Of a stretch of 64,000 nucleotides of DNA, positions 36,134 through 47,420 are shown piece by piece (position 1 is the stretch's first letter; each line of letters begins with the position of its first letter). The position numbers were made by a program, and so were the translations under genes. Below the pieces are notes generated by a model, which saw only the letters and a list, made by a program, of their open reading frames with translations, had not been told where the DNA came from and did not search any database. Source of the stretch: Nitzschia sp. DOCU1. Its lineage: Eukaryota > Bacillariophyta > Bacillariophyceae > Bacillariales > Bacillariaceae. Where the stretch lies: NCBI GenBank assembly GCA_951394045.1, contig OX595995.1:2227237-2291236 (forward strand). The letters are read 5' to 3'.

Positions 36134-36344
36134 TTAATCAACTGTGGCCAAAGTCGATTGCACCCACTGCGTTGTGGCGGGGATCCGTGGCCCAGGGCCG
36201 GCAAAAATTTGACTAACTGAACGAAGAGCATCCTCAACTAGTGATGGTCCCATTGCGGTATTGGAGGGTCTTTGACTTGCTCCAAGGAAGGATTGAGTGC
36301 AAGGTTGAGGCAGAAGTTTTCCGATAGGGCCCAATGGGCGTATG
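36134..36344 (-). pseudogene. Open frame truncated by the large Ty3 element (left flank)
   Basis: A minus frame ending at TAA (36134-36136) reads FLGASQRPSNTAMGPSLVED and IFAGPGPRIPATTQWVQ. It looks coding up to the insertion site. The right flank (46735-47137) is also open on the minus strand. When the transposon is removed the two frames are out of step by one, so a further indel is needed to join them. Probably a relic gag or host gene. Confidence 0.35.
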
Positions 36345-36661
36345 CGTAATGGGCGGCCGGAGACGGTAGCCGAGTCCAAGTAGTCATTCAGGATAGCCCC
36401 CGGAGGGAGCGACGTCACACCACCGGAGGAGGTGCGGAGACTGCCAAGTGGCACGTCCCTGAACCCCAGAAGGAACGAGTGGCTAGAGCTCCTGACGGAA
36501 ACAGCATCCGAAACAATCTACCCAGTTATCAACCAGCAGTTGTTACGATAGCCCTTTCTAGTCCTGACGCCTAGCAACGAGTACTATACAGACCATGAAG
36601 ATTAACACAGGTAACTATTTCGATAGCCTAGCCGAGGATAGCGATCAGGGAGACACTTTAC
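36345..36661 (+). repeat. 5' LTR, containing the gag start codon
   Basis: 317 bp. The gag ATG lies at 36595-36597, so the last 67 bp of the LTR encode the first 22 residues of Gag. The boundaries are set by the polypurine tract at the 3' copy and by the target duplication. Confidence 0.9.
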
Positions 36662-39453
36662 GTGGTATCCCGCCGGCGGAATCGGATGCAGATACACCCC
36701 CGAAGCGTTACAAGTCGAACGGGGAGGTTGGAATCGCCTACGGAGGGCACCAGGACGCGTCGTTTGGCTTCGGGATTGGAGGAGTCGACGGGATGCGCTC
36801 GGCCTTCGCCATCGATCCAGTCATGGGAGGCGAGTTCGGCGGCCTAATCCACACCACGGGCACGGGAGGCAGTCGTAACGGAAATAACGCATTCACCATG
36901 GCCTATGGACGGTCCGGCAGAGCCTACGGAAAATCGGAAGAACCCGCTCGGGTGCAATACTACAAGGACGGAATGCCCGTCACTCGAGAGCTGAAGTGGG
37001 GGAAACTTCAAGCCAACGTACCGGTCATCGCGCCATACTCGGAAAGGCCCATCATCAAGAACCAGATCTTCGAGAAAGCGGTGACCGCCATCGAACGAGC
37101 CAACGCCTCATCGCACGACAAGGTAGACGCCCTCAACTCCATCTTCGAATCCCAATGCCCAGGAGCCCATGTCATGGCAGCCACCGCCATCGCGGATTTG
37201 CTACGCTTCGACAGCAACGCGTTTAGGTTCGCGAGGATCGAGGCCAGAGCCCAAAACGGCGCCGTGTTGGACCCCGAAGACCCGCAAAACGCCAACGACT
37301 TCCCGCCCAACTTCCGCGCAGCAGTCCAGTGGTTTCACATTACGCTCATCGTCCAACCCCGCCAGATTGGAGCCGTACCAGACCTCGGCATCGACCCGAC
37401 CCAGTTCCCCATCGAGGAACAAGCCTCCGTCTTCATCGTAGCACCCAAAATCAACGGGACGCTCCCTGGATTTTTCACCCCCGACATCATCATCGACCCA
37501 GCCCACCATCGCACGCTCGTGGCCGCCTACGCCCTCTCGAACCAACCGTTCACCCCCGCCAAACTCAGGAACAACTCCCCCAACGGCGTCCCGGAAGCGA
37601 GTGTCTTCGAGGATTGGCTCAACGGGATAAAGGCCCGCACGATGTACCAGGCGCTTGCTCAAGCCATCAAGGCGCAATACGTAGGCAAACTGGAAGGTCT
37701 ACTGTCGGTCGGCCAACGCCTACAACGCATTGGCCCACAGATCTACAACGCAGAGACAAAACAAAACGAATTCCAGAAGGTAAACGACATCTTCAAGCAA
37801 TACCAACAAATCATGCAGGAAATCGACCCGGCCAACCCGAGCCCAGACATCCCCGATCTGGCAAACCAGTTCATGCATTCGCTACCATACGACCTCCAGA
37901 AACGAGTCTACGAATTGGTCCCAGCGGGCGCCCCAGCCGGATTCGCCGACAATTTGCGCAGACTCCATGTTTTCAAACTCGCGTGCGAGAAAGAAGAGGG
38001 GAATCTATCGCAGCTAGTGCGAATCGTCAAGAACGTGGCACCAGCCAAACGGTACGCACATTCGAACTCGAACCTACAAGACGACAATGGAACACCAGGC
38101 AGGACATTCGCCACGATGAGACAACCGGACTTCACTAGCAGCCCATCGACCGCCATGCAAGGCCTCAAGCTAGCCCCCGCAGCACCATTCGCAGGCCACA
38201 ACGGACCTACGGACAACTACTTGATGGCACCGTACTGCCTCCAAATCGGGAATGAAGAAATGGCGATGACCCTCCCGGCAGACTTAGCCACAGAAGCCGA
38301 AAAAGGGAACAAATGGGCCGAGCACACAATCTTGCTCATGGCCACGATGAGCGCCGCAGAAACAGCATTAGCCGACGCGAGCGGCTCCAAATTTCCAAGA
38401 ACCTGCTGGGGATGCGACACGGCGGGACACACTTTCCGCGACTGCCCCCACAAAGCGGACAGGAAAGTCGCCGACAACTTCTTCAAGAACGTACGAGAGT
38501 GGAAACTAAAACGCCAGGCCAACTACAACGGAAGCCAACAATGGAGGTCAGGCAATGGAGCCCATCAAGCAGGATACATGACCACCCAAATCCACGACTA
38601 CATACAGAAGATCGCGGACCCAGCAACGACCCCGGAGCACCGAACCCAATACCTCCAGGCCCTGGCCAACAAGGTCATCCAAGAAAGCCCCAAGCCCCCG
38701 AAGCCAAGCAAAAGCGGCGCGCTACAGTTCACCTACTTCCTACCGAACAGCGAAATCGAAAGCGGCGAACAGGCATACCCGAAGAAAGCCACCAAGGGGA
38801 CGTCGTTCGCCATGATGGAGCATCAAGGCCCCAAGCTAACATTCGCCGTCAACGCGACCCTAGCATTCATTGCAGTCCCGGTCGGCCCAAGCCTAACAAA
38901 CGGCATCGAAATCAAAGGACTCTACGATACAGGCGGATGCTGCACGATGGGCTGGTACGACTACCACCACGCCATCTCCCAACGCCACCCCGAAATAGTC
39001 AAGGATTTCCACGAATTGGAGAAATACCGCTTCGAGCCCATCGCCATCGGCGGCATCGAGGACGGACAGGTGAAAATCACACACCTCGTGGAGTACTACC
39101 TGCCCTACGACGACGGAAACGGGAACCCCCACACGATGCTCATCGGCCTCGTCGACAAGCTACCGTTGAACACCATCTTCGGCCTACCTTTCATCATCAA
39201 AGCCGAAATGAAGGCAGACTTCAATGAAATGCTAGTCTACTCAAGGGTCTTGGACGACGAATTCAAGATCACAATGGAACGACCCACCCTAATCCCGGTA
39301 GAAGAGCTCGACCACATGGGACACTTGAAGAACAAGACGTACACGAACATCAAGACCGACTACTCCTCTCACGACCTCTCATCGAAGGCGTACGCGATCG
39401 TCGGAGACATCGACGGACACGACCCCCAAGAAATCGGAAACTTCGCCGTATGA
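36595..39453 (+). CDS. Gag and aspartic protease of the Ty3 element
   Basis: 952 codons from ATG 36595 (ACAGACCATGA). The N-terminal 110 residues are Gly-rich (GFGIGGVDGMRS). The central part has helical capsid-like sequence (VYELVPAGAPAGFADNLRRL, residues about 440-460). A zinc knuckle, CWGCDTAGHTFRDCP, lies at about 603. The C-terminal part is the protease with active site GLYDTGGCC (about 777) and the flap/closing strand LNTIFGLPFIIKAEM (about 860). Gag builds the particle and the protease cleaves the polyprotein. The start codon lies in the LTR and the frame runs across the primer-binding region. The frame ends with TGA 39451-39453 and pol follows in the same frame. Confidence 0.9.
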   Translation: MKINTGNYFDSLAEDSDQGDTLRGIPPAESDADTPPKRYKSNGEVGIAYGGHQDASFGFGIGGVDGMRSAFAIDPVMGGEFGGLIHTTGTGGSRNGNNAFTMAYGRSGRAYGKSEEPARVQYYKDGMPVTRELKWGKLQANVPVIAPYSERPIIKNQIFEKAVTAIERANASSHDKVDALNSIFESQCPGAHVMAATAIADLLRFDSNAFRFARIEARAQNGAVLDPEDPQNANDFPPNFRAAVQWFHITLIVQPRQIGAVPDLGIDPTQFPIEEQASVFIVAPKINGTLPGFFTPDIIIDPAHHRTLVAAYALSNQPFTPAKLRNNSPNGVPEASVFEDWLNGIKARTMYQALAQAIKAQYVGKLEGLLSVGQRLQRIGPQIYNAETKQNEFQKVNDIFKQYQQIMQEIDPANPSPDIPDLANQFMHSLPYDLQKRVYELVPAGAPAGFADNLRRLHVFKLACEKEEGNLSQLVRIVKNVAPAKRYAHSNSNLQDDNGTPGRTFATMRQPDFTSSPSTAMQGLKLAPAAPFAGHNGPTDNYLMAPYCLQIGNEEMAMTLPADLATEAEKGNKWAEHTILLMATMSAAETALADASGSKFPRTCWGCDTAGHTFRDCPHKADRKVADNFFKNVREWKLKRQANYNGSQQWRSGNGAHQAGYMTTQIHDYIQKIADPATTPEHRTQYLQALANKVIQESPKPPKPSKSGALQFTYFLPNSEIESGEQAYPKKATKGTSFAMMEHQGPKLTFAVNATLAFIAVPVGPSLTNGIEIKGLYDTGGCCTMGWYDYHHAISQRHPEIVKDFHELEKYRFEPIAIGGIEDGQVKITHLVEYYLPYDDGNGNPHTMLIGLVDKLPLNTIFGLPFIIKAEMKADFNEMLVYSRVLDDEFKITMERPTLIPVEELDHMGHLKNKTYTNIKTDYSSHDLSSKAYAIVGDIDGHDPQEIGNFAV
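36662..36680 (+). other. Probable primer-binding site within gag
   Basis: TGGTATCCCGCC begins at 36663, one base after the LTR. TGG at this position is usual for pairing with a tRNA CCA end, but which tRNA is unknown. It encodes part of RGIPPAES. Confidence 0.55.
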
Positions 39454-39462
39454 GAAATACGG
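39446..39462 (+). promoter_or_regulatory. Gag-pol junction: in-frame TGA inside a small hairpin
   Basis: CCGTAT and ATACGG flank GAGAA, and the TGA stop (39451-39453) straddles the stem-loop border. After the stop the same frame is open through 39454-39555 into pol. This fits stop-codon readthrough. Reinitiation at ATG 39556 is the alternative. Confidence 0.5.
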
Positions 39463-39555
39463 GGGACGACCCAAAAAGTACCTCTTGCAGCTTTAACTAC
39501 TTTAAGCCCGCAATTAGAGCGAATAGGATCGACCCCCCGAATTAGACAACTGGTC

Positions 39556-42500
39556 ATGACATCCGAGGACTACAAGATCTTCGCAGCGTCCGCAGCCACA
39601 GAAGAAGAGGAAAGACGGGCCAAACTAGGCATCATGGAAGACGGAACCAAGGCAGTCAAAGTCCCGAAAAGGGTGTGGCGCCCACAGGTCAAGAACACAT
39701 ATGAAGAACCCGCGTTTGAAGACCTCGCAGCCTCGATGGACTGGCTATTCGAAGACAACGGAAAAGTGGTAGCAAAGCACAAAGCCGGCCCACCACCACG
39801 CGAAGACGTCATAATCTTCGACCCCACAGAACACCAAGAACAACTCGACAAAAGCATCCAATGGAGGGATTGCCCCAGCGACATGCACGGCCCCATCGAG
39901 GCTATCATAAAAGAATTTTGGGATGTATTCGATACCAACGGAATGCAGCGGCACATCCTAGGCTACGAGTTCAACGTCGACACCGCCACAACGCAACCGG
40001 TATGCTGCAGGCAACCAAGATACGGGCCACATGAATCGTTCCAAATCACCAAGCTGGCAAAAGCATTAGAAGACAAGGGCTTAATTGAAGACGACGAAGG
40101 ACCATGGGGAGCCATGGTGGTCTTAGCCTCGAAACCAAACCAAGGCCACGTACACTGGTCAGAATACATCTTCCGACTCTGCGTATCATACCGCAACCTG
40201 AACCAAATCACAAGACCGTTCAACTGCTTCATCTTAAGATGCGACGACGCCGTGGAAAGCATTGGCGATTCCAATTGCTTCCTCACGCTCGACTTGGACG
40301 CAGGCTATTGGCAAGTCAAGGTACACGACGAGGCAAAAGAGAAACTGGCGTTCTTCGTCCCAGAAGGAAAGAAACACTGGCGGGTCATGCCAATGGGAAT
40401 TCTGAATGCGCACGCATTCTTCGTCGCGATGTCAACAGATTTCAAACGAGAATGGACCGAACGATTTCGATCCGACCCAGCGAGAGCCATAGAGGCACTA
40501 CTGACGACGATGGATAAGTACAAATCGCTCGTCAAAGCCCAAGGCATGGAAGAGAAGATGGCAGAAATCAAGGCAACCATAGGAAAGGCAGCCCACGAAG
40601 GCAACCCGGACAGCAAGGTCATCGTTGACGACGTGATGGTGCACGACAACAACCCCATCACGCTGTTAGCATACTTCGTGAGCATGCTTGAAATCTACAA
40701 GAAGTACCGAGTCACCATCAACCTGAGGAAGACGCGGTTTTTCCCGAGCCGAGCCGAATTCGTCGGAATAGACGTACTACCAGGAGGGAACTCCCCTGCC
40801 AAGTCCAAGTACGATACGATCCACCGAATGCCGCTCCCCAAGACCTTCTCAGACATCCGCATGGTCATCGGATGCATCGGTTTTTATTCAAGTTGGATTC
40901 CACACTACGAGATGGAAGTGGCACCGTTCAGAGAACTCATCAAACAAGAACCAATCACGAACGCGGACCCCGAGGCATCCGAGAAGGTATTACAAGGATT
41001 ATGGACGGCAGAGCACACGGCTAAGTTCGAGGACCTAAAGCAGGCAATCATCAAAGGGCCGGTACTACAACGAGCAGATTCCAAACGAAGATTCTTCGCC
41101 AAGACGGATTGGTCCAAGATAGGGATGGGCGCAGTCTTGTGCCAAGCCGAAATCAGCGAAGAGGCCGAAGAAGCACTGCTGAAGGAAATCGAGGGAGAAA
41201 AGTGCGAATTCGACAAGACACTAGGAGGGCTACGACTACGCCCGATAGACTTCATCTCAAGGACCTGCAAAGGGACTGAGTGCAATTACCATTCCTACGT
41301 CGGCGAGGCAGCATGCGGACGATGGGCGTTCCAGAAGTTTCGCAAGTGGCTGCAAGGCGCGGAATTCACTTGGATCACGGACTGCAGTGGACTCACAAAA
41401 TTCTTCGAGGCCGACGCAGACATAACGAGCACCACGCAGCGATGGCGACTCGAGCTGCTTCGGTACAACTTCACCATCGTACATCGGCCAGGACGAATGC
41501 TCATAGAATGCGACCTACTATCAAGATACGAGTCGGTGGTAGCAGACTGGAGAGAAACGACGGAACAAACGACGGAACAGCCGATGCTGGCAGCGTTTTG
41601 GCGAGCCACGAAGACATCGTCCCCTCCGCCATTCGTCAACAACAACCCTACAGTCGTAGGCCCACACACGACACTGCGAACGGCATTAGCGACGGCGGAG
41701 GACAAGGCAAGGGCAACATGGATCATCGGAGCAGGATTGCAAATGGCTACGGCAGCTATGGAAAGACTGGGCCACGAGGCCATGGTCACATTGAAGACGG
41801 ACGAAGATAAGTATTGGAATGACAAGACAGACTGCCCAAACGTCAAGGAAGCAGCCAGGCGGACAGCCAACAACAAAACATCACCACCAGTCGAATGGCT
41901 GTTTGTCGCGCGAGCGGACGACATCAAGTCCGACGGACAACATCAGGCTTTAGAAAGAATCATCGACGCGGCAGCGGCCAACGGACTAAGGGCAGCCACG
42001 ATGGTTTGGTCCAAGACAAGCGCCAACAAAGGAAACCGCAGCCGATGGAAAAAGACACTAGAAGGAAAGGGACTCACCGTCACCACATTCGAACTTAGAG
42101 GGGAGGCTTGTGGAGCCCCCATGGAATCACAGCACTACGGCATCCTAGCAACTACGGAGTCGACAGCCGGACTCTTGGAAGCCACCATAAAACAACAACC
42201 GGCCGAGGAGGAAAGGAGACTGGAGGACGTTCTGGATCTCCCCAACGACAGCTACAGCGACTACGTCAACGTCGCACCCATCCAATCGAAGGCACCGGGA
42301 GCCAGGACGGTAGACGTTTCGTCCGACGGGTCCCCAACCACAAGGACCTTGTTCACAAGGGAGGACAGAGCACCGAACCTATCAAAAGAAACGGAGATCA
42401 TCGGAAGAGGCGAATTCCTGGTGGAAACCCAAGACGCGTGGGTACCAACAAGAGTCCGAGCAATCCGACCCTGGGAAACTCTACAACTTGCAGGCATGAG

Positions 42501-44967
42501 CAGAGAAGAGGCAAGAGACCACCTACAAATCGAAGGCACCAAATGGGAAAAGGAAAGGGTCAGAGTCCGAACGACAACACCAATCGAGGTATGGGAAACC
42601 GCGCTGACCCATGTCATAGCGGCGGAAGAAGCGTCCAACCACACTACGAAACAAGAGCAGGAACTCCTGCAAGCCTACATGTCCCCACAGCTACGATCAA
42701 TGGCATTCGGCAGAACCAACAGGCATACCACGTGGCCACTGCCAACGAGAGAGGTATGGGTCAGGGAGTTGCGAAATGACGGGGACACCGCACTGCTGAT
42801 GGAGATGATCCTCGCCAAACAACGGCTGTCGAGGAACCGACTACAAGACACCAAATACTGGAAAGCATACGAAAAGGGGAGACTCTCGGTCAAAGACGGC
42901 ATCCTCTACGAATACGAAGAACCCAAGGCGATGAACATACGGCAACTACGAAGAGCAGTCGTACCACTAAGGCTGCGGGACGTCATCATAGCGGGATACC
43001 ATTCCACGCCTCTGGCAGGACACATGTCCAGCACCAAGACCATCTACAGAATCTCGGCGAGGTATTGGTGGCCGCAAATGGCAACGGAAATCGACAAAGC
43101 CGTGTCAGGATGCGGTATCTGCAGAGTGGCGAACTCAACAAGCCACAAGGAGCAGAAAATACTACAAGCACTCGAAATGGACGAGCCGTTCGACGTTTGC
43201 GGAATGGACGTATGGGTACCGGGTACCACGAAGCCAACAGACACCAACGCTTCAAGAGTCAAAAGAGCCAGAGTCGAACAGAAGGCAGCACTAACATACT
43301 TGTGCGTCTCAACAGGAATGGCCACAACAGCATTCATGAACAAGGTCGACTCGGACACGGCGGCGAGACAAGCCTTTGGACAATTCTTCGTACCTCGAGG
43401 CATGCCGAAGCTAATCATGCTGGACGAGGGCAGCGAATTCAAAAGCGTGCTGGTAACGATGTGCGACCGATTAGGGATAAACCACTACGTGGTCAGCCCG
43501 GAAAACCACGACGGAATCATCAACGAAAGATTCCACAGGTACCTAAACAAGGTACAAAAGATAGGAGCGACAGATCTGCAAACGTACGAAGAGTGGGCCA
43601 TGAACACTCTATTCGCCACGTACGCCTGGAATGCATCACCGATAGCCGGGACAGATATCCAGAGAGCCTTCGCCGCGGTCGCAAGGCATTTCAACTTCCC
43701 TCTGGACACGGCACCGGAAGAACTAGCGATCACTCGGATCCACACTGAAGGCACCAACGTCGCACAAAGGACGGACGCCATGTTCCCGCTCTGGTGGAGA
43801 CAGAAGGAACTCATGAAGATCCTCAACGAAAGCAGAAGGAAATACCACCGAGACCTGAAGAACGGGAAAAGAAACAAGAGGACATTCGAAATTGGCGACA
43901 TCGTGGCAGTCCGCAAACAAGTAAAGTCCAAAGCATCCATAGGCGCACCGGCGAAGCTCACGATAAAATCCAAAGGCCCCTACCGAGTCATCGGCAAGGA
44001 ATCGGACGAGTCTTACAGACTGCAGAAGATCCCGGCAACGAGCAGGATTACCAGAGCGACGGGCCGAATGATCAAAGAGGCATCATTCCGAATGGAGAAG
44101 TTGCCATCGCATTTGGTGGTCCACCGCCGAGTCGACACTCCCGACACCAGACTAGCGAAGATGAGACAAACGCTAGCTCACAATCCACTCGAAGCCAGCC
44201 TAGGAATCCCGGACTTCGGAAGGTACGCGAAAGCAACGCCGGACAAAGCTTACGCATTCGAAAAACTGGTCGACTTATGGCCCGAGACGGAAGCCCAAGA
44301 AGATTCGTCGGAAGAAGAGGAGGAAGAACAAATCAACCAAGCGGAAACGATCGTGGACCAACAAGAAGCAGAAGAGGAAGCAGCTCGAGGACAAGGACGA
44401 AGGGTGACCTTCCAGGTACAAGAGCAAATGACGACCAAGACCGAACTGGGACTCCTCAAACGGAGGATCGACAAGTCCCAAGACAAGCTGTTCTTGATCG
44501 CTTACAAGGAAGAAGGAGACCCGAAAGGACAGTGGTTCCTAGTCCAGGTCGACGAAGAGGCAACGAGCAACAGCTGGGCGCGGCGAAAAGGGCAATACCA
44601 CTGCAAATGGTATTTCACCCACCCGGGTGACGCGAAGAAGAAGTGGGTGAGGGACTGCAGGTTCTGGCCACTCATCAGAGAACTCAACGAGGACGAGTCA
44701 ATGGCGATGATCGTCCCGACCAACCCAAACAAGGTCGAGGCCCTGCTACTCAAAAAGGGACACAGGTACGCCTGGTACCAAAAAGAGGCGAACCTCGCAG
44801 AGGACGCCATGGTCGGGCCGTTCGACTTCGGCCCGAGGCACACACTGCCGACTACCGTCGGGGCAAAGCTCCGAGCGGCAGCAGCGGCCATGGTAAGCCA
44901 CGACGTCGATGTTTCACAAATCGACAAGGTGGTCCCACACAAAGAGGGACGAAGAAAGAGGGGATGA
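39556..44967 (+). CDS. Pol: RT, RNase H, methyltransferase-like insert, integrase
   Basis: 1803 codons from ATG 39556; the frame is open back to 39454. Reverse transcriptase: LCVSYRNLNQ, LTLDLDAGYWQVKV (about 244) and active site VIVDDVMVHD (about 355). RNase H: AKTDWSKIGMGAVLCQ (about 514), VGEAACGRWAF, TWITDCSGL and LIECDLLSRY (to about 657). Residues about 700-1030 are a C5-methyltransferase-like insert (separate entry). Integrase: an HHCC finger (HSTPLAGHM ... GCGICR) and the triad MDVWVPG, LDEGSEF and INERFHRY (about 1216-1325). The C-terminal 450 residues include an acidic run and KWYFTHPGDAKKKWVRDCRF, possibly a small chromatin-binding-type domain. The gap between RNase H and integrase is several hundred residues longer than usual for Ty3/gypsy. 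Confidence 0.92.
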   Translation: MTSEDYKIFAASAATEEEERRAKLGIMEDGTKAVKVPKRVWRPQVKNTYEEPAFEDLAASMDWLFEDNGKVVAKHKAGPPPREDVIIFDPTEHQEQLDKSIQWRDCPSDMHGPIEAIIKEFWDVFDTNGMQRHILGYEFNVDTATTQPVCCRQPRYGPHESFQITKLAKALEDKGLIEDDEGPWGAMVVLASKPNQGHVHWSEYIFRLCVSYRNLNQITRPFNCFILRCDDAVESIGDSNCFLTLDLDAGYWQVKVHDEAKEKLAFFVPEGKKHWRVMPMGILNAHAFFVAMSTDFKREWTERFRSDPARAIEALLTTMDKYKSLVKAQGMEEKMAEIKATIGKAAHEGNPDSKVIVDDVMVHDNNPITLLAYFVSMLEIYKKYRVTINLRKTRFFPSRAEFVGIDVLPGGNSPAKSKYDTIHRMPLPKTFSDIRMVIGCIGFYSSWIPHYEMEVAPFRELIKQEPITNADPEASEKVLQGLWTAEHTAKFEDLKQAIIKGPVLQRADSKRRFFAKTDWSKIGMGAVLCQAEISEEAEEALLKEIEGEKCEFDKTLGGLRLRPIDFISRTCKGTECNYHSYVGEAACGRWAFQKFRKWLQGAEFTWITDCSGLTKFFEADADITSTTQRWRLELLRYNFTIVHRPGRMLIECDLLSRYESVVADWRETTEQTTEQPMLAAFWRATKTSSPPPFVNNNPTVVGPHTTLRTALATAEDKARATWIIGAGLQMATAAMERLGHEAMVTLKTDEDKYWNDKTDCPNVKEAARRTANNKTSPPVEWLFVARADDIKSDGQHQALERIIDAAAANGLRAATMVWSKTSANKGNRSRWKKTLEGKGLTVTTFELRGEACGAPMESQHYGILATTESTAGLLEATIKQQPAEEERRLEDVLDLPNDSYSDYVNVAPIQSKAPGARTVDVSSDGSPTTRTLFTREDRAPNLSKETEIIGRGEFLVETQDAWVPTRVRAIRPWETLQLAGMSREEARDHLQIEGTKWEKERVRVRTTTPIEVWETALTHVIAAEEASNHTTKQEQELLQAYMSPQLRSMAFGRTNRHTTWPLPTREVWVRELRNDGDTALLMEMILAKQRLSRNRLQDTKYWKAYEKGRLSVKDGILYEYEEPKAMNIRQLRRAVVPLRLRDVIIAGYHSTPLAGHMSSTKTIYRISARYWWPQMATEIDKAVSGCGICRVANSTSHKEQKILQALEMDEPFDVCGMDVWVPGTTKPTDTNASRVKRARVEQKAALTYLCVSTGMATTAFMNKVDSDTAARQAFGQFFVPRGMPKLIMLDEGSEFKSVLVTMCDRLGINHYVVSPENHDGIINERFHRYLNKVQKIGATDLQTYEEWAMNTLFATYAWNASPIAGTDIQRAFAAVARHFNFPLDTAPEELAITRIHTEGTNVAQRTDAMFPLWWRQKELMKILNESRRKYHRDLKNGKRNKRTFEIGDIVAVRKQVKSKASIGAPAKLTIKSKGPYRVIGKESDESYRLQKIPATSRITRATGRMIKEASFRMEKLPSHLVVHRRVDTPDTRLAKMRQTLAHNPLEASLGIPDFGRYAKATPDKAYAFEKLVDLWPETEAQEDSSEEEEEEQINQAETIVDQQEAEEEAARGQGRRVTFQVQEQMTTKTELGLLKRRIDKSQDKLFLIAYKEEGDPKGQWFLVQVDEEATSNSWARRKGQYHCKWYFTHPGDAKKKWVRDCRFWPLIRELNEDESMAMIVPTNPNKVEALLLKKGHRYAWYQKEANLAEDAMVGPFDFGPRHTLPTTVGAKLRAAAAAMVSHDVDVSQIDKVVPHKEGRRKRG
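41655..42640 (+). other. Degenerate C5-DNA-methyltransferase-like domain in pol
   Basis: Residues about 700-1030 of pol, between RNase H and integrase. Segments in canonical order: motif I-like WIIGAGLQMATAAMERLGHE (41719; compare the FxGxGG...LE..G pattern), then an acidic TDEDKYW. At the motif IV place, LFVARADDIKSDG stands where the catalytic Pro-Cys loop should be. Next come a motif VI-like TMVWSKT without the Glu, motif VIII-like GAPMESQHYGILA (42112), LEDVLDLPNDS, motif IX-like VRAIRPWETLQLAGM (42454; compare RxLTxxExxxLQGF), and motif X-like TTTPIEVWETALTHVI (42571). The order and spacing fit a C5 methyltransferase, but the catalytic Cys and Glu are missing, so it would be inactive. 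Assignment is by eye only. Confidence 0.55.
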
Positions 44968-45226
44968 AGGAGGCGAGGAAGACGCAATAGTCCAAAGACC
45001 AAAGAACAAGGAAGCGAAAAAAAAAAAAACGAACGAGGACGAAGAAGACGAAACAAGCCTGACCCCGAAACGGCTCCGGAGGGGGCACGCTCGAAGGGCA
45101 TAAGTGAGAGACTATAGCCCCGTGTGCGCGGCGAGCACAGGAAGGAAAAACGGCCGAATGCACAACGGTCGGCCATGGCAAAACGAAAGCCGCCACCATC
45201 GACGACAAATCGCAACAATAGTTACC

Positions 45227-45766
45227 ATGGACGACGAATCGGACGACAGCGAGAGCAGCAGAGACAGCAGAGACCCCGAGGACCAACGCCTCTGGGTACA
45301 ACTCGATCGTGAGCGCGCGGCCCGCCACAACGGAGACATGGCGCGGCTGCTGTCACAAGTGTTCATGCACTTCATAACACAACGACAGGAATTCGACGAG
45401 CTGGCCAATGCCCTGGAGTGGCACAGCCACGCCGAGGAATACGCGACGAAAGTGGCACGCATCAGGGAAGCGATGGCAGGACAACAGGCCGTCCTACAGG
45501 AACTTTCCCCGCACCTCGAAAGAATGAACTACTCAAACGTCCCGACGGATAGGACGACAACAGTGGGGCAACGCATATTACTGTGCGGAGAGTGCCCACG
45601 TCCAGCCATGAGAACGAGGAGCCAAGGAACGTGGAACGAGGCGTTGGAACGCCGAGCCATCGTGACCGGAATATATTCGAACGGGGTGGATTACACTACG
45701 GATTCCGGCCGCCAAGGCTTCGCTACATACGATGACGTACGACCGCTATACGACGGGGTCCCTTGA
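45227..45766 (+). CDS. Extra ORF downstream of pol (ORF3)
   Basis: 179 codons from ATG 45227; the frame is open back to 45104, with another ATG at 45158. The N-terminus is acidic (MDDESDDSESSRDSRDPEDQ). The middle is a predicted coiled-coil (MHFITQRQEFDELANALEWH). The C-terminal part has RILLCGECPRPAM and GIYSNGVDYTTDSGRQGF. There is no signal peptide or membrane segment, so it is not an envelope-type protein. It lies inside the retrotransposon, 260 bp after pol, and has the same GC-rich composition. It may be an accessory protein made from a spliced or separate RNA. Function unknown. Confidence 0.55.
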   Translation: MDDESDDSESSRDSRDPEDQRLWVQLDRERAARHNGDMARLLSQVFMHFITQRQEFDELANALEWHSHAEEYATKVARIREAMAGQQAVLQELSPHLERMNYSNVPTDRTTTVGQRILLCGECPRPAMRTRSQGTWNEALERRAIVTGIYSNGVDYTTDSGRQGFATYDDVRPLYDGVP

Positions 45767-46400
45767 GAGCGAAGAAACCGGCCGTGCATGACAGGACAGC
45801 ACACAGGCGCCGGGAAGACGAAAACAAGAAAACGGGGACGACGCAGTCCAAGGACTATAAAATAGGGAAACACTTCACACCAATCCATCATACGACGGGG
45901 ACGAGAGCAGCCATCACGGGTACGACGTAGCAAGACAAACGACAACAGGGTACAGAGGCAAGGAGAACGCGAAAGACCCACCAACACGGAGAACCACCTA
46001 GGAAAACACGCAACAATTTCGGCGTTCTCGGCGCACTAAGAGTCGGACTGATCATCCGAAATTCTGAGCGTCGGGGGTTGATAGCTACCGGCCAACGGCC
46101 GAACTCCAAGCCGAACGCAAGACGGAGACACAAGTCGAGAATCAGGCCGAAACGGAGGCAACGAGCGAGCAAGCGTAGACTCGAGTGAGATCGAGGTACC
46201 TGCGTTCGATCTGCGTTTGCGAGAGCGAAGCTAAAGTCAAGCCAAGAGGATCGCAGTCGAAGAAGTCGAGTCGGAAGCGAAGAGCAGTCTCATTTTTCGA
46301 GACCCGGACGGAACGTACCAGAGCGTCTCGAGCCAAGGCTCGAACCTGGACCTCGGAGGACCGAGGACCAGCACTCTTCTTCACGGGGACGCAGGCTTTC
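45767..46400 (+). other. 3' non-coding region of the Ty3 element
   Basis: 634 bp of purine-rich, GC-rich sequence between ORF3 and the polypurine tract. A plus frame (46185-46418) is open but basic and low in complexity, so I do not call it a gene. TATAAAATAGGG at 45855 resembles a TATA element and could serve a downstream antisense or LTR transcript. Confidence 0.4.
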
Positions 46401-46413
46401 GAAGAAGAGGGGA
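46401..46413 (+). other. Polypurine tract of the Ty3 element
   Basis: GAAGAAGAGGGGA directly abuts the 3' LTR at 46414, as needed to prime plus-strand DNA. It fixes the LTR boundary. Confidence 0.85.
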
Positions 46414-46730
46414 CGTAATGGGCGGCCGGAGACGGTAGCCGAGTCCAAGTAGTCATTCAGGATAGCCCCCGGAGGGAGCGACGTCACACCACCGGAGGAG
46501 GCGCGGAGACTGCCAAGTGGCACGTCCCTGAACCCCAGAAGGAACGAGTGGCTAGAGCTCCCGACGGAAACAGCATCCGAAACAATCTACCCAGTTATCA
46601 ACCAGTAGTTGTTACGATAGCCCTTTCTAGTCCTGACGCCTAGCAACGAGTACTATACAGACCATGAAGATTAACACAGGTAACTATTTCGATAGCCTAG
46701 CCGAGGATAGCGATCAGGGAGACACTTTAC
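46414..46730 (+). repeat. 3' LTR of the Ty3 element
   Basis: 317 bp, three C/T differences from the 5' copy. It carries a duplicate of the gag start (ATG at 46664) that runs out of the element after 22 codons. Confidence 0.95.
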
Positions 46731-47420
46731 GTATGGTCTTCCCTTGATCTACGGGATGTATTCAGGCTAAGTGTGCTGTCCTTCTCCTGTAGGTTGGTTT
46801 CCATTGCACTCACGAGTTCCTCGGCCCTGTTCAGTTTAAGCACCTCCACCTTGTTTGCACCATCTTGTCCCATTGCTTGGACGAGCAATGCTAGTATTGC
46901 AGATTGATCGCTTACAACCGTAATCTTCCCGTTCACTCTGATGCAAGTGAAGGGTGGGGAGCTATGATGGGTTGTAATTGCCTGTACTTCCGTCTTCTCC
47001 TCCGCCGTCCTCAAAGTCTGTTTGGATTCCATAGGTTCTTCCGTTGGCAATGATGTCCCGTTTTTGCATGCCACAAAGGTGTCTTCTTTTTCTTTGTTAG
47101 ACATGGAATGCTTACCTGCTTTTTGACTCAAGGGCACAATAATACTCCCGGGGGGAATTACTTATCCCCAAATTCTGAAGGCAAATCCTGGCTTAGGTCA
47201 TTGCGCACTACCTGATGGATTGGCAAAGCACCAACAATTTGTCTTTCATTGCTTGAAAAGGCTTGTGGGAACCTACCTTTGGCCGGTTCCAGCTGTTTTT
47301 AAACTGCTGCTCATCAGAACTATGCTTGGAGGTGCAAAACAATTTCACCTTTTGTCCTAAAGATTGGACAATGCCGCCATAAGAAGAATACTGTTGATTT
47401 CTCCTTGTATTGCTTGCCAA
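46731..47420 (-). pseudogene. Broken gag-like or host gene, right flank of the Ty3 element
   Basis: Two minus-strand open stretches. 47137-46735 encodes KNGTSLPTEEPMESKQTLRT, FTCIRVNGKITVVSDQSAI and LVQAMGQDGANKVEVLKLN, and then runs into the transposon. 47420-47208 encodes SYGGIVQSLGQKVKLFCTSK in another frame. The first has the look of the N-terminal part of diatom gag-like proteins, though that is a weak impression. It is cut by the Ty3 insertion at 46735. Confidence 0.35.

Follow-up and report, generated by a model that had tools for sequence, protein, structure and literature searches.

What occupies the over-long interval between RNase H and integrase in the Pol protein of a young diatom retrotransposon? 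The element is a Ty3-type long terminal repeat (LTR) retrotransposon with gag and pol frames both open, located at positions 36345-46730 of a 64,000-nucleotide stretch of Nitzschia sp. DOCU1 (contig OX595995.1), referred to here as the window; all features described below lie on its forward strand. An initial annotation, made from the sequence alone, had placed in this interval (41655-42640) a domain derived from C5-cytosine DNA methyltransferases (hereafter C5 methyltransferases) and catalytically dead. The fold of a related insert, profile comparison, searches with a C5 hidden Markov model (HMM) and the missing catalytic residues all support this proposal. We give a probability of about 70% to the reading that the insert is derived from a C5 methyltransferase captured into an ancestral Ty3-type pol, that its catalytic residues were lost before the observed lineages split, and that it was retained afterwards as a module that folds but does not catalyse. 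The C5 descent and the dead state are supported by the fold, the collinear motif remnants, the loss of motifs IV, VI and VIII in every aligned insert, and purifying selection.

In the Pol of the window, 498 residues separate the end of RNase H (residue 671) from the start of the integrase zinc finger (residue 1170), as placed by Pfam. The corresponding spacing is 509-571 residues in the related proteins P0002-P0005 and 123 residues in P0006, whose Pol is of the ordinary Ty3 kind with a chromodomain, which confirms that the spacer is unusually long. The C5-methyltransferase-like domain without catalytic residues covers about residues 744-1060 (41683-42633). Its inferred edges follow the part of the structure model that aligns with M.HhaI and lie within about 30 bases of those first annotated. 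Peptides resembling motifs I, VIII, IX and X follow one another in the order originally described, an order that shuffling supports. The motif I-like GAGLQMATAAMERLGHE (residues 759-775, 41728-41778) forms the loop after the first strand and a helix, as judged from sequence and structure model. The motif VIII-like GAPMESQHYGILA (residues 887-899, 42112-42150) and the motif IX-like VRAIRPWETLQLAGM (residues 1001-1015, 42454-42498) were placed by profile comparison and alignment, and the conserved RLEDVLDLPNDSYSDYV block (42217-42267), seen in the alignment, is located between them. The motif X-like TTTPIEVWETALTHVI (residues 1040-1055, 42571-42618) is in register only in the C5 HMM match of P0004 and in the global alignment.

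The fold provides strong evidence. Template-free structure prediction of the P0002 insert, which is 37-38% identical to that of the window, gave a model with a predicted local distance difference test (pLDDT) score of 67 and a predicted template modelling (pTM) score of 0.69. This model matches C5 methyltransferases end to end, including the C-terminal region (M.HhaI, E = 2.8e-10). M.HhaI and M.MpeI are its closest solved folds across the whole domain; in the structural alignments identity is about 10%. The comparison with M.HhaI proposed in the initial annotation therefore returned a C5 fold, with its large and small domains, for the P0002 insert. The window insert's own model shows this fold only weakly and is uninformative, so that it is the P0002 insert that supplies the strong evidence from the fold.

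Profile comparisons point in the same direction. An alignment of nine inserts was compared by hhalign with C5 profiles (one of 80 bacterial loci was dropped from the C5 profile). Against a profile of 10 sequences the score is 33.2 (E = 0.0015 for one comparison), which is reached by none of 100 column shuffles (mean 14.3, standard deviation 2.2) and by none of 100 shuffles of 15-column blocks. Against a profile of 89 sequences the score rises to 37.5 (E = 3.3e-4), and 0/60 column shuffles reach it. At profile level the C5 motifs are collinear; the local match spans motif VIII, the VLD block and motif IX, with the first half of the domain aligned only in global mode and by the fold. When the C5 HMM was run over eight Pol and Gag proteins together with 160 shuffles, the window Pol, P0004, P0005 and P0001 ranked at the top. 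All four matches fall inside the insert, each being weak alone (E 0.05-0.5) and P0001 being closely related to the window Pol. In the reverse search, an insert HMM against 89 C5 enzymes and 89 shuffles gave weak scores (best E 0.41), and 22 of the top 25 were real enzymes.

Several results weigh against this descent. A Foldseek search with the low-confidence model of the window insert showed no C5 methyltransferase among the 50 matches listed. The probabilities assigned by hhalign are low (17% with the 10-sequence and 38% with the 89-sequence profile), and one of 60 shuffles of 20-column blocks reaches the real score, with the larger profile in both modes and with the smaller one in local mode. 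P0002 and P0003 score among the shuffles in the C5 HMM search. PF00145, named beforehand as a test, matches the insert in none of the eight members at E up to 10, where the program discards most matches weaker than about E 0.1, and does not match the window Pol either. The insert alone retrieved nothing relevant in Pfam, NCBIfam or PDB sequence searches, and a PDB profile search with it returned no C5 enzyme. By hhalign, twelve class I methyltransferase loci of the host, among them two pairs with equal scores, reach 10-21; since nine of ten single C5 enzymes score only 12-26, much like these loci, and one scores 35.3, single sequences discriminate poorly. Single sequences of the divergent host methyltransferases L010, L014 and L015 gave no signal by hhalign and thus pointed to no C5 subfamily as donor. 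Moreover, the insert evolves faster than reverse transcriptase (RT) or integrase, the window and L003 being 65% identical in the insert, 81% in integrase and 80% in RT-RNase H. Finally, the relatives were found with insert-containing queries, so how often the insert is absent cannot be read from them. A coincidental Rossmann-like fold unrelated to methyltransferases would fit the lack of Pfam or relevant PDB sequence matches, the poor window model and the modest hhalign probabilities. However, the end-to-end match is specific to C5 enzymes, C-terminal region included, and the profile match is collinear; we regard such a coincidence as very improbable.

M.HhaI and M.MpeI are enzymes that carry Pro-Cys, Glu-Asn-Val and QxRxR. 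The insert resembles them in fold over its whole length but lacks these catalytic motifs. At the place of motif IV, occupied in the window by EWLFVARADDIKS (41893-41931; alignment and structure model), Pro-Cys is found in none of the nine aligned inserts, and the sole Pro-Cys in any row belongs to P0002, at the motif X place. The motif VI place, AATMVWSKT in the window (41992-42018; same evidence), has Glu-Asn-Val in 0/9 rows and an invariant Trp instead. QxRxR of motif VIII is likewise absent from every row. The absence of the motif IV Pro-Cys and the motif VI Glu, first noted for the window, thus extends to all nine inserts, whereas the idea that some related Pol proteins might keep PCQ and ENV found no example among the relatives collected, a list that is incomplete. 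By eye, the strand-loop EWIIAPRMQDFTS of the P0002 model appears to take the place of the strand and PCQxFS of the enzymes, the Cys position then being filled by Met, or by Ala in the diatom copies. The GxG of motif I is kept in part, being gone in P0004 and P0005, and motif IX retains Pro, Glu, Leu and Gly in all nine rows and Arg in eight (Gln in L004). The alignment omits P0001, because its insert and the L003 insert agree at 345/345 residues, as well as the broken pieces L006 and L007; L003 and L004 are near duplicates, so the nine rows represent fewer than nine independent lineages. Judging from these sequences, a domain without the motif IV, VI and VIII residues should be incapable of methylation by the C5 mechanism. 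As the catalytic motifs are gone in all nine inserts, which reach down to 26% identity, the loss is probably ancestral.

The measurement of selection across copies, also proposed at the outset, gave a ratio of nonsynonymous to synonymous substitution rates (dN/dS) of 0.152 (0.081-0.261) for the insert between the window and L002, compared with 0.074 for RT-RNase H and 0.074 for the start of the integrase part. A value of 0.864 for the 'linker+IN' segment of the same pair is artefactual, caused by a frameshift in L002; the integrase-start value supersedes it. L005 compared with L006 and L007, a partly decayed pair, gives 0.307 and 0.197 in two insert parts and 0.087 in RT-RNase H. These ratios indicate that the insert is under purifying selection, weaker than that on the neighbouring enzymes. 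Conservation is uneven along the domain. Mean pairwise identity is among the highest, at 0.57-0.63, in the regions of motif I (0.63) and motif II (0.57), in the VLDxPN block and in motif IX, and it is 0.27 at the motif VI place; W34, T60, E62 and W66 of the insert alignment are invariant.

The host genome (52 Mb, 63 contigs) contains at least six copies of the element family, found separately via the insert, integrase and RT-RNase H, and every one carries the insert; one more short RT fragment is too short to score for it, and the next RTs listed are at most 31% identical. In a second copy with open frames, L137 (G000 C9), gag has 957 codons and is 66% identical to the window gag, and pol has 1843 codons and is 74% identical to the window pol. 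The genome also yields 18 silicon-transporter matches, which we take as a mark of diatoms. Three protein searches yielded P0001-P0006. In two of them scoring covered the 7995 and 7984 candidates with the most words in common; the list of relatives is incomplete, as the second of these two missed P0002-P0004 although its query contained them. Over the insert region, identity to the window is 64% for P0001, 36% for P0003 and 31% for P0004. P0005, an MMETSP transcript, is 40% identical over the insert-to-end stretch and 26% over the insert alone, and suggests that a relative is expressed. P0001 and L003 may represent a single element present in two assemblies, which would leave four distinct relatives. 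A scan of IMG/VR with the insert profile gave 21 pattern matches and no relatives. Apart from the element, C5 methyltransferases are strongly matched by five loci of the host genome, and a further two loci are more divergent. In the host proteins of L014 and L015 (G000 C10 and C7), the C5 methyltransferase core is divergent and reads TSCKDFS or TSCKNFS, plus FENV.

The charge of such a module bears on what it could do. The diatom inserts are acidic, with an isoelectric point (pI) of 4.9-5.8, compared with a median of 8.6 for 89 C5 enzymes; four of the host's own C5 enzymes have pI 6.2-8.5. The P0002 and P0003 inserts are likewise acidic, and those of P0004 and P0005 are slightly basic. This acidity, together with the poor conservation of the putative DNA-recognition region (mean identity 0.32), counts against targeting through DNA binding. 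A plain DNA-binding role is weakened by the charge, which favours protein docking in the diatom copies. Of the binding, targeting or decoy roles that the initial annotation had suggested, we tentatively prefer a non-catalytic docking or targeting module that would act with RT and integrase. A C5 methyltransferase would have entered the RNase H-integrase interval of an ancestral Ty3-type pol in a single capture and lost its catalytic residues ahead of the split among the observed lineages. After cleavage of the polyprotein, the domain could be freed with, or stay joined to, RT or integrase. It would then dock the RT/integrase complex on a nuclear partner, either chromatin or the host methyltransferase machinery, and so help to target or protect the new copy, the captured pseudoenzyme playing the part that the chromodomain has in chromoviruses.

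Two explanations come close to this docking module in likelihood, namely interference of the DNMT3L kind and a structural role. DNMT3L and other inactive DNMTs have the C5 fold without catalytic residues and are retained by selection. The dead domain of the element, similar to DNMT3L in keeping the fold and losing catalysis, might pair with a host C5 methyltransferase, titrating it off new copies or steering it. The five strong and two divergent host loci would offer partners, and the acidic surface suits protein binding more than DNA binding, although the slightly basic inserts of P0004 and P0005 do not share it. Two of the three LTR differences (36433 and 36493) are CG/TG, consistent with methylation of the element. 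In the comparison of the window with L002, which shows 146 substitutions (117 transitions), 44 are changes from CG to TG/CA in either direction, and CpG holds 27% of C/G sites. These changes are only suggestive of CpG methylation, and the observed/expected CpG ratio of the element (1.08) exceeds that of its surroundings (0.72), which argues against this rival. We consider a regulator or decoy of this kind doubtful. Its more specific version, a long-dead captured methyltransferase that antagonises or guides the host methylation machinery on the element's own new copies, seems rather unlikely. DNMT3L itself differs from the insert: it is a cellular regulator of vertebrates, and its active partner is known.

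A structural spacer or Pol assembly part, in which the fold serves only folding, dimerisation or RT-integrase spacing, would agree with selection that exists but is weaker than on RT-RNase H, with the loss of every catalytic motif, and with the acceptance of a dUTPase at the same site in some retroviruses. The clusters of invariant residues around motif I, motif II, VLDxPN and motif IX would be superfluous in a mere spacer, and we hold this explanation to be doubtful as well. The well-conserved motif I and II regions, with invariants of their own, in comparison with the motif VI place could reflect a pocket rebuilt for another ligand or a reaction not involving cytosine. However, P0004 and P0005 lack the GxG of motif I and no candidate catalytic set is evident, which makes a rebuilt pocket quite improbable.

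The rest of the element has the features expected of the Ty3 type: LTRs, a target duplication and the order RT - RNase H - integrase. The 5' LTR (36345-36661) and the 3' LTR (46414-46730) are each 317 base pairs long and differ by 3 mismatches over the 315 columns compared, the last two bases having been placed by eye. Both are bordered by the 5-base-pair target-site duplication GTATG, read from the sequence (36340-36344 and 46731-46735). These values and the open pol frame agree with the young, open copy described initially. The gag-protease open frame (36568-39453) comprises 961 residues from stop to stop and is ended by a TGA (39451-39453); its protease part was assigned from a DTGG motif, which we presume to mark it. 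The gag frame apparently begins within the 5' LTR and continues across the LTR edge (36595-36661). The pol open frame (39454-44967; 1837 residues) follows in the same frame past this one TGA. It encodes RT (RVT_1, residues 244-440, 40183-40773), RNase H (residues 542-671, 41077-41466) and the integrase H2C2 zinc finger (residues 1170-1228, 42961-43137), all recognised by Pfam, which gave no match to the integrase core of the window Pol and recognised the finger alone. In all five copies examined (the window, 39436-39475, and L137-L140), a single TGA parts in-frame gag and pol, and ACGGGGGAC begins 5-6 bases downstream of it. This arrangement suggests that pol is expressed via stop-codon readthrough. 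After integrase, residues 1561-1837 (about 44134-44964) form a conserved C-terminal stretch (..WFLVQVDEE..GQYHCKWYF..) common to P0001-P0003 and P0005. It has no convincing Pfam match and may be an unrecognised reader-like domain.

Accessory domains captured into Pol are familiar from other elements. In some retroviruses a catalytic dUTPase occupies the RNase H-integrase interval, and chromoviruses carry a chromodomain at the integrase C-terminus; the insert is like both in being captured and unlike both in fold. With its fold kept and catalysis dropped, it implies that such a domain can be worth retaining without methylating anything, and the reason why elements capture methyltransferases becomes testable through a non-enzymatic domain. 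Pfam and PDB sequence searches miss domains of this kind, and further hidden cases are possible.

The closest published parallel is KnitGypsy-Dnmt3 of Klebsormidium nitens, described by de Mendoza et al. (2018, PMC5890265) as a Gypsy-type LTR retrotransposon whose Pol frame includes a C5 methyltransferase under purifying selection (Ka/Ks < 0.2). The diatom element is similar in having a C5 methyltransferase-type domain within the Pol frame and purifying selection on it. KnitGypsy-Dnmt3 is related to Dnmt3 and keeps the key residues, whereas the diatom insert has no motif IV, VI or VIII residues, is beyond Pfam recognition and comes from another lineage of hosts. SymbioLINE-Dnmt and SymbioDIRS-Dnmt3 of dinoflagellates are also retrotransposon-borne C5 methyltransferases, the SymbioDIRS domain being placed within Pol (PMC5890265). 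According to the same paper, SymbioDIRS enzymes can methylate CGs, in line with the earlier statement that retrotransposons of other eukaryotes carry active cytosine methyltransferases, and the tested SymbioLINE enzyme did not methylate DNA in yeast. Unlike the diatom Ty3 element, these are LINE and DIRS elements with key residues kept; two lineages are known to have retrotransposon methyltransferases in which these residues are intact (PMC5890265). No paper on an inactive retrotransposon methyltransferase was found in the literature searched, which leaves most subscription journals outside it. The retained pseudo-methyltransferase of the diatom element is thus probably a departure from the published retrotransposon methyltransferases with their key residues, being a C5 descendant rather than a C5 enzyme.
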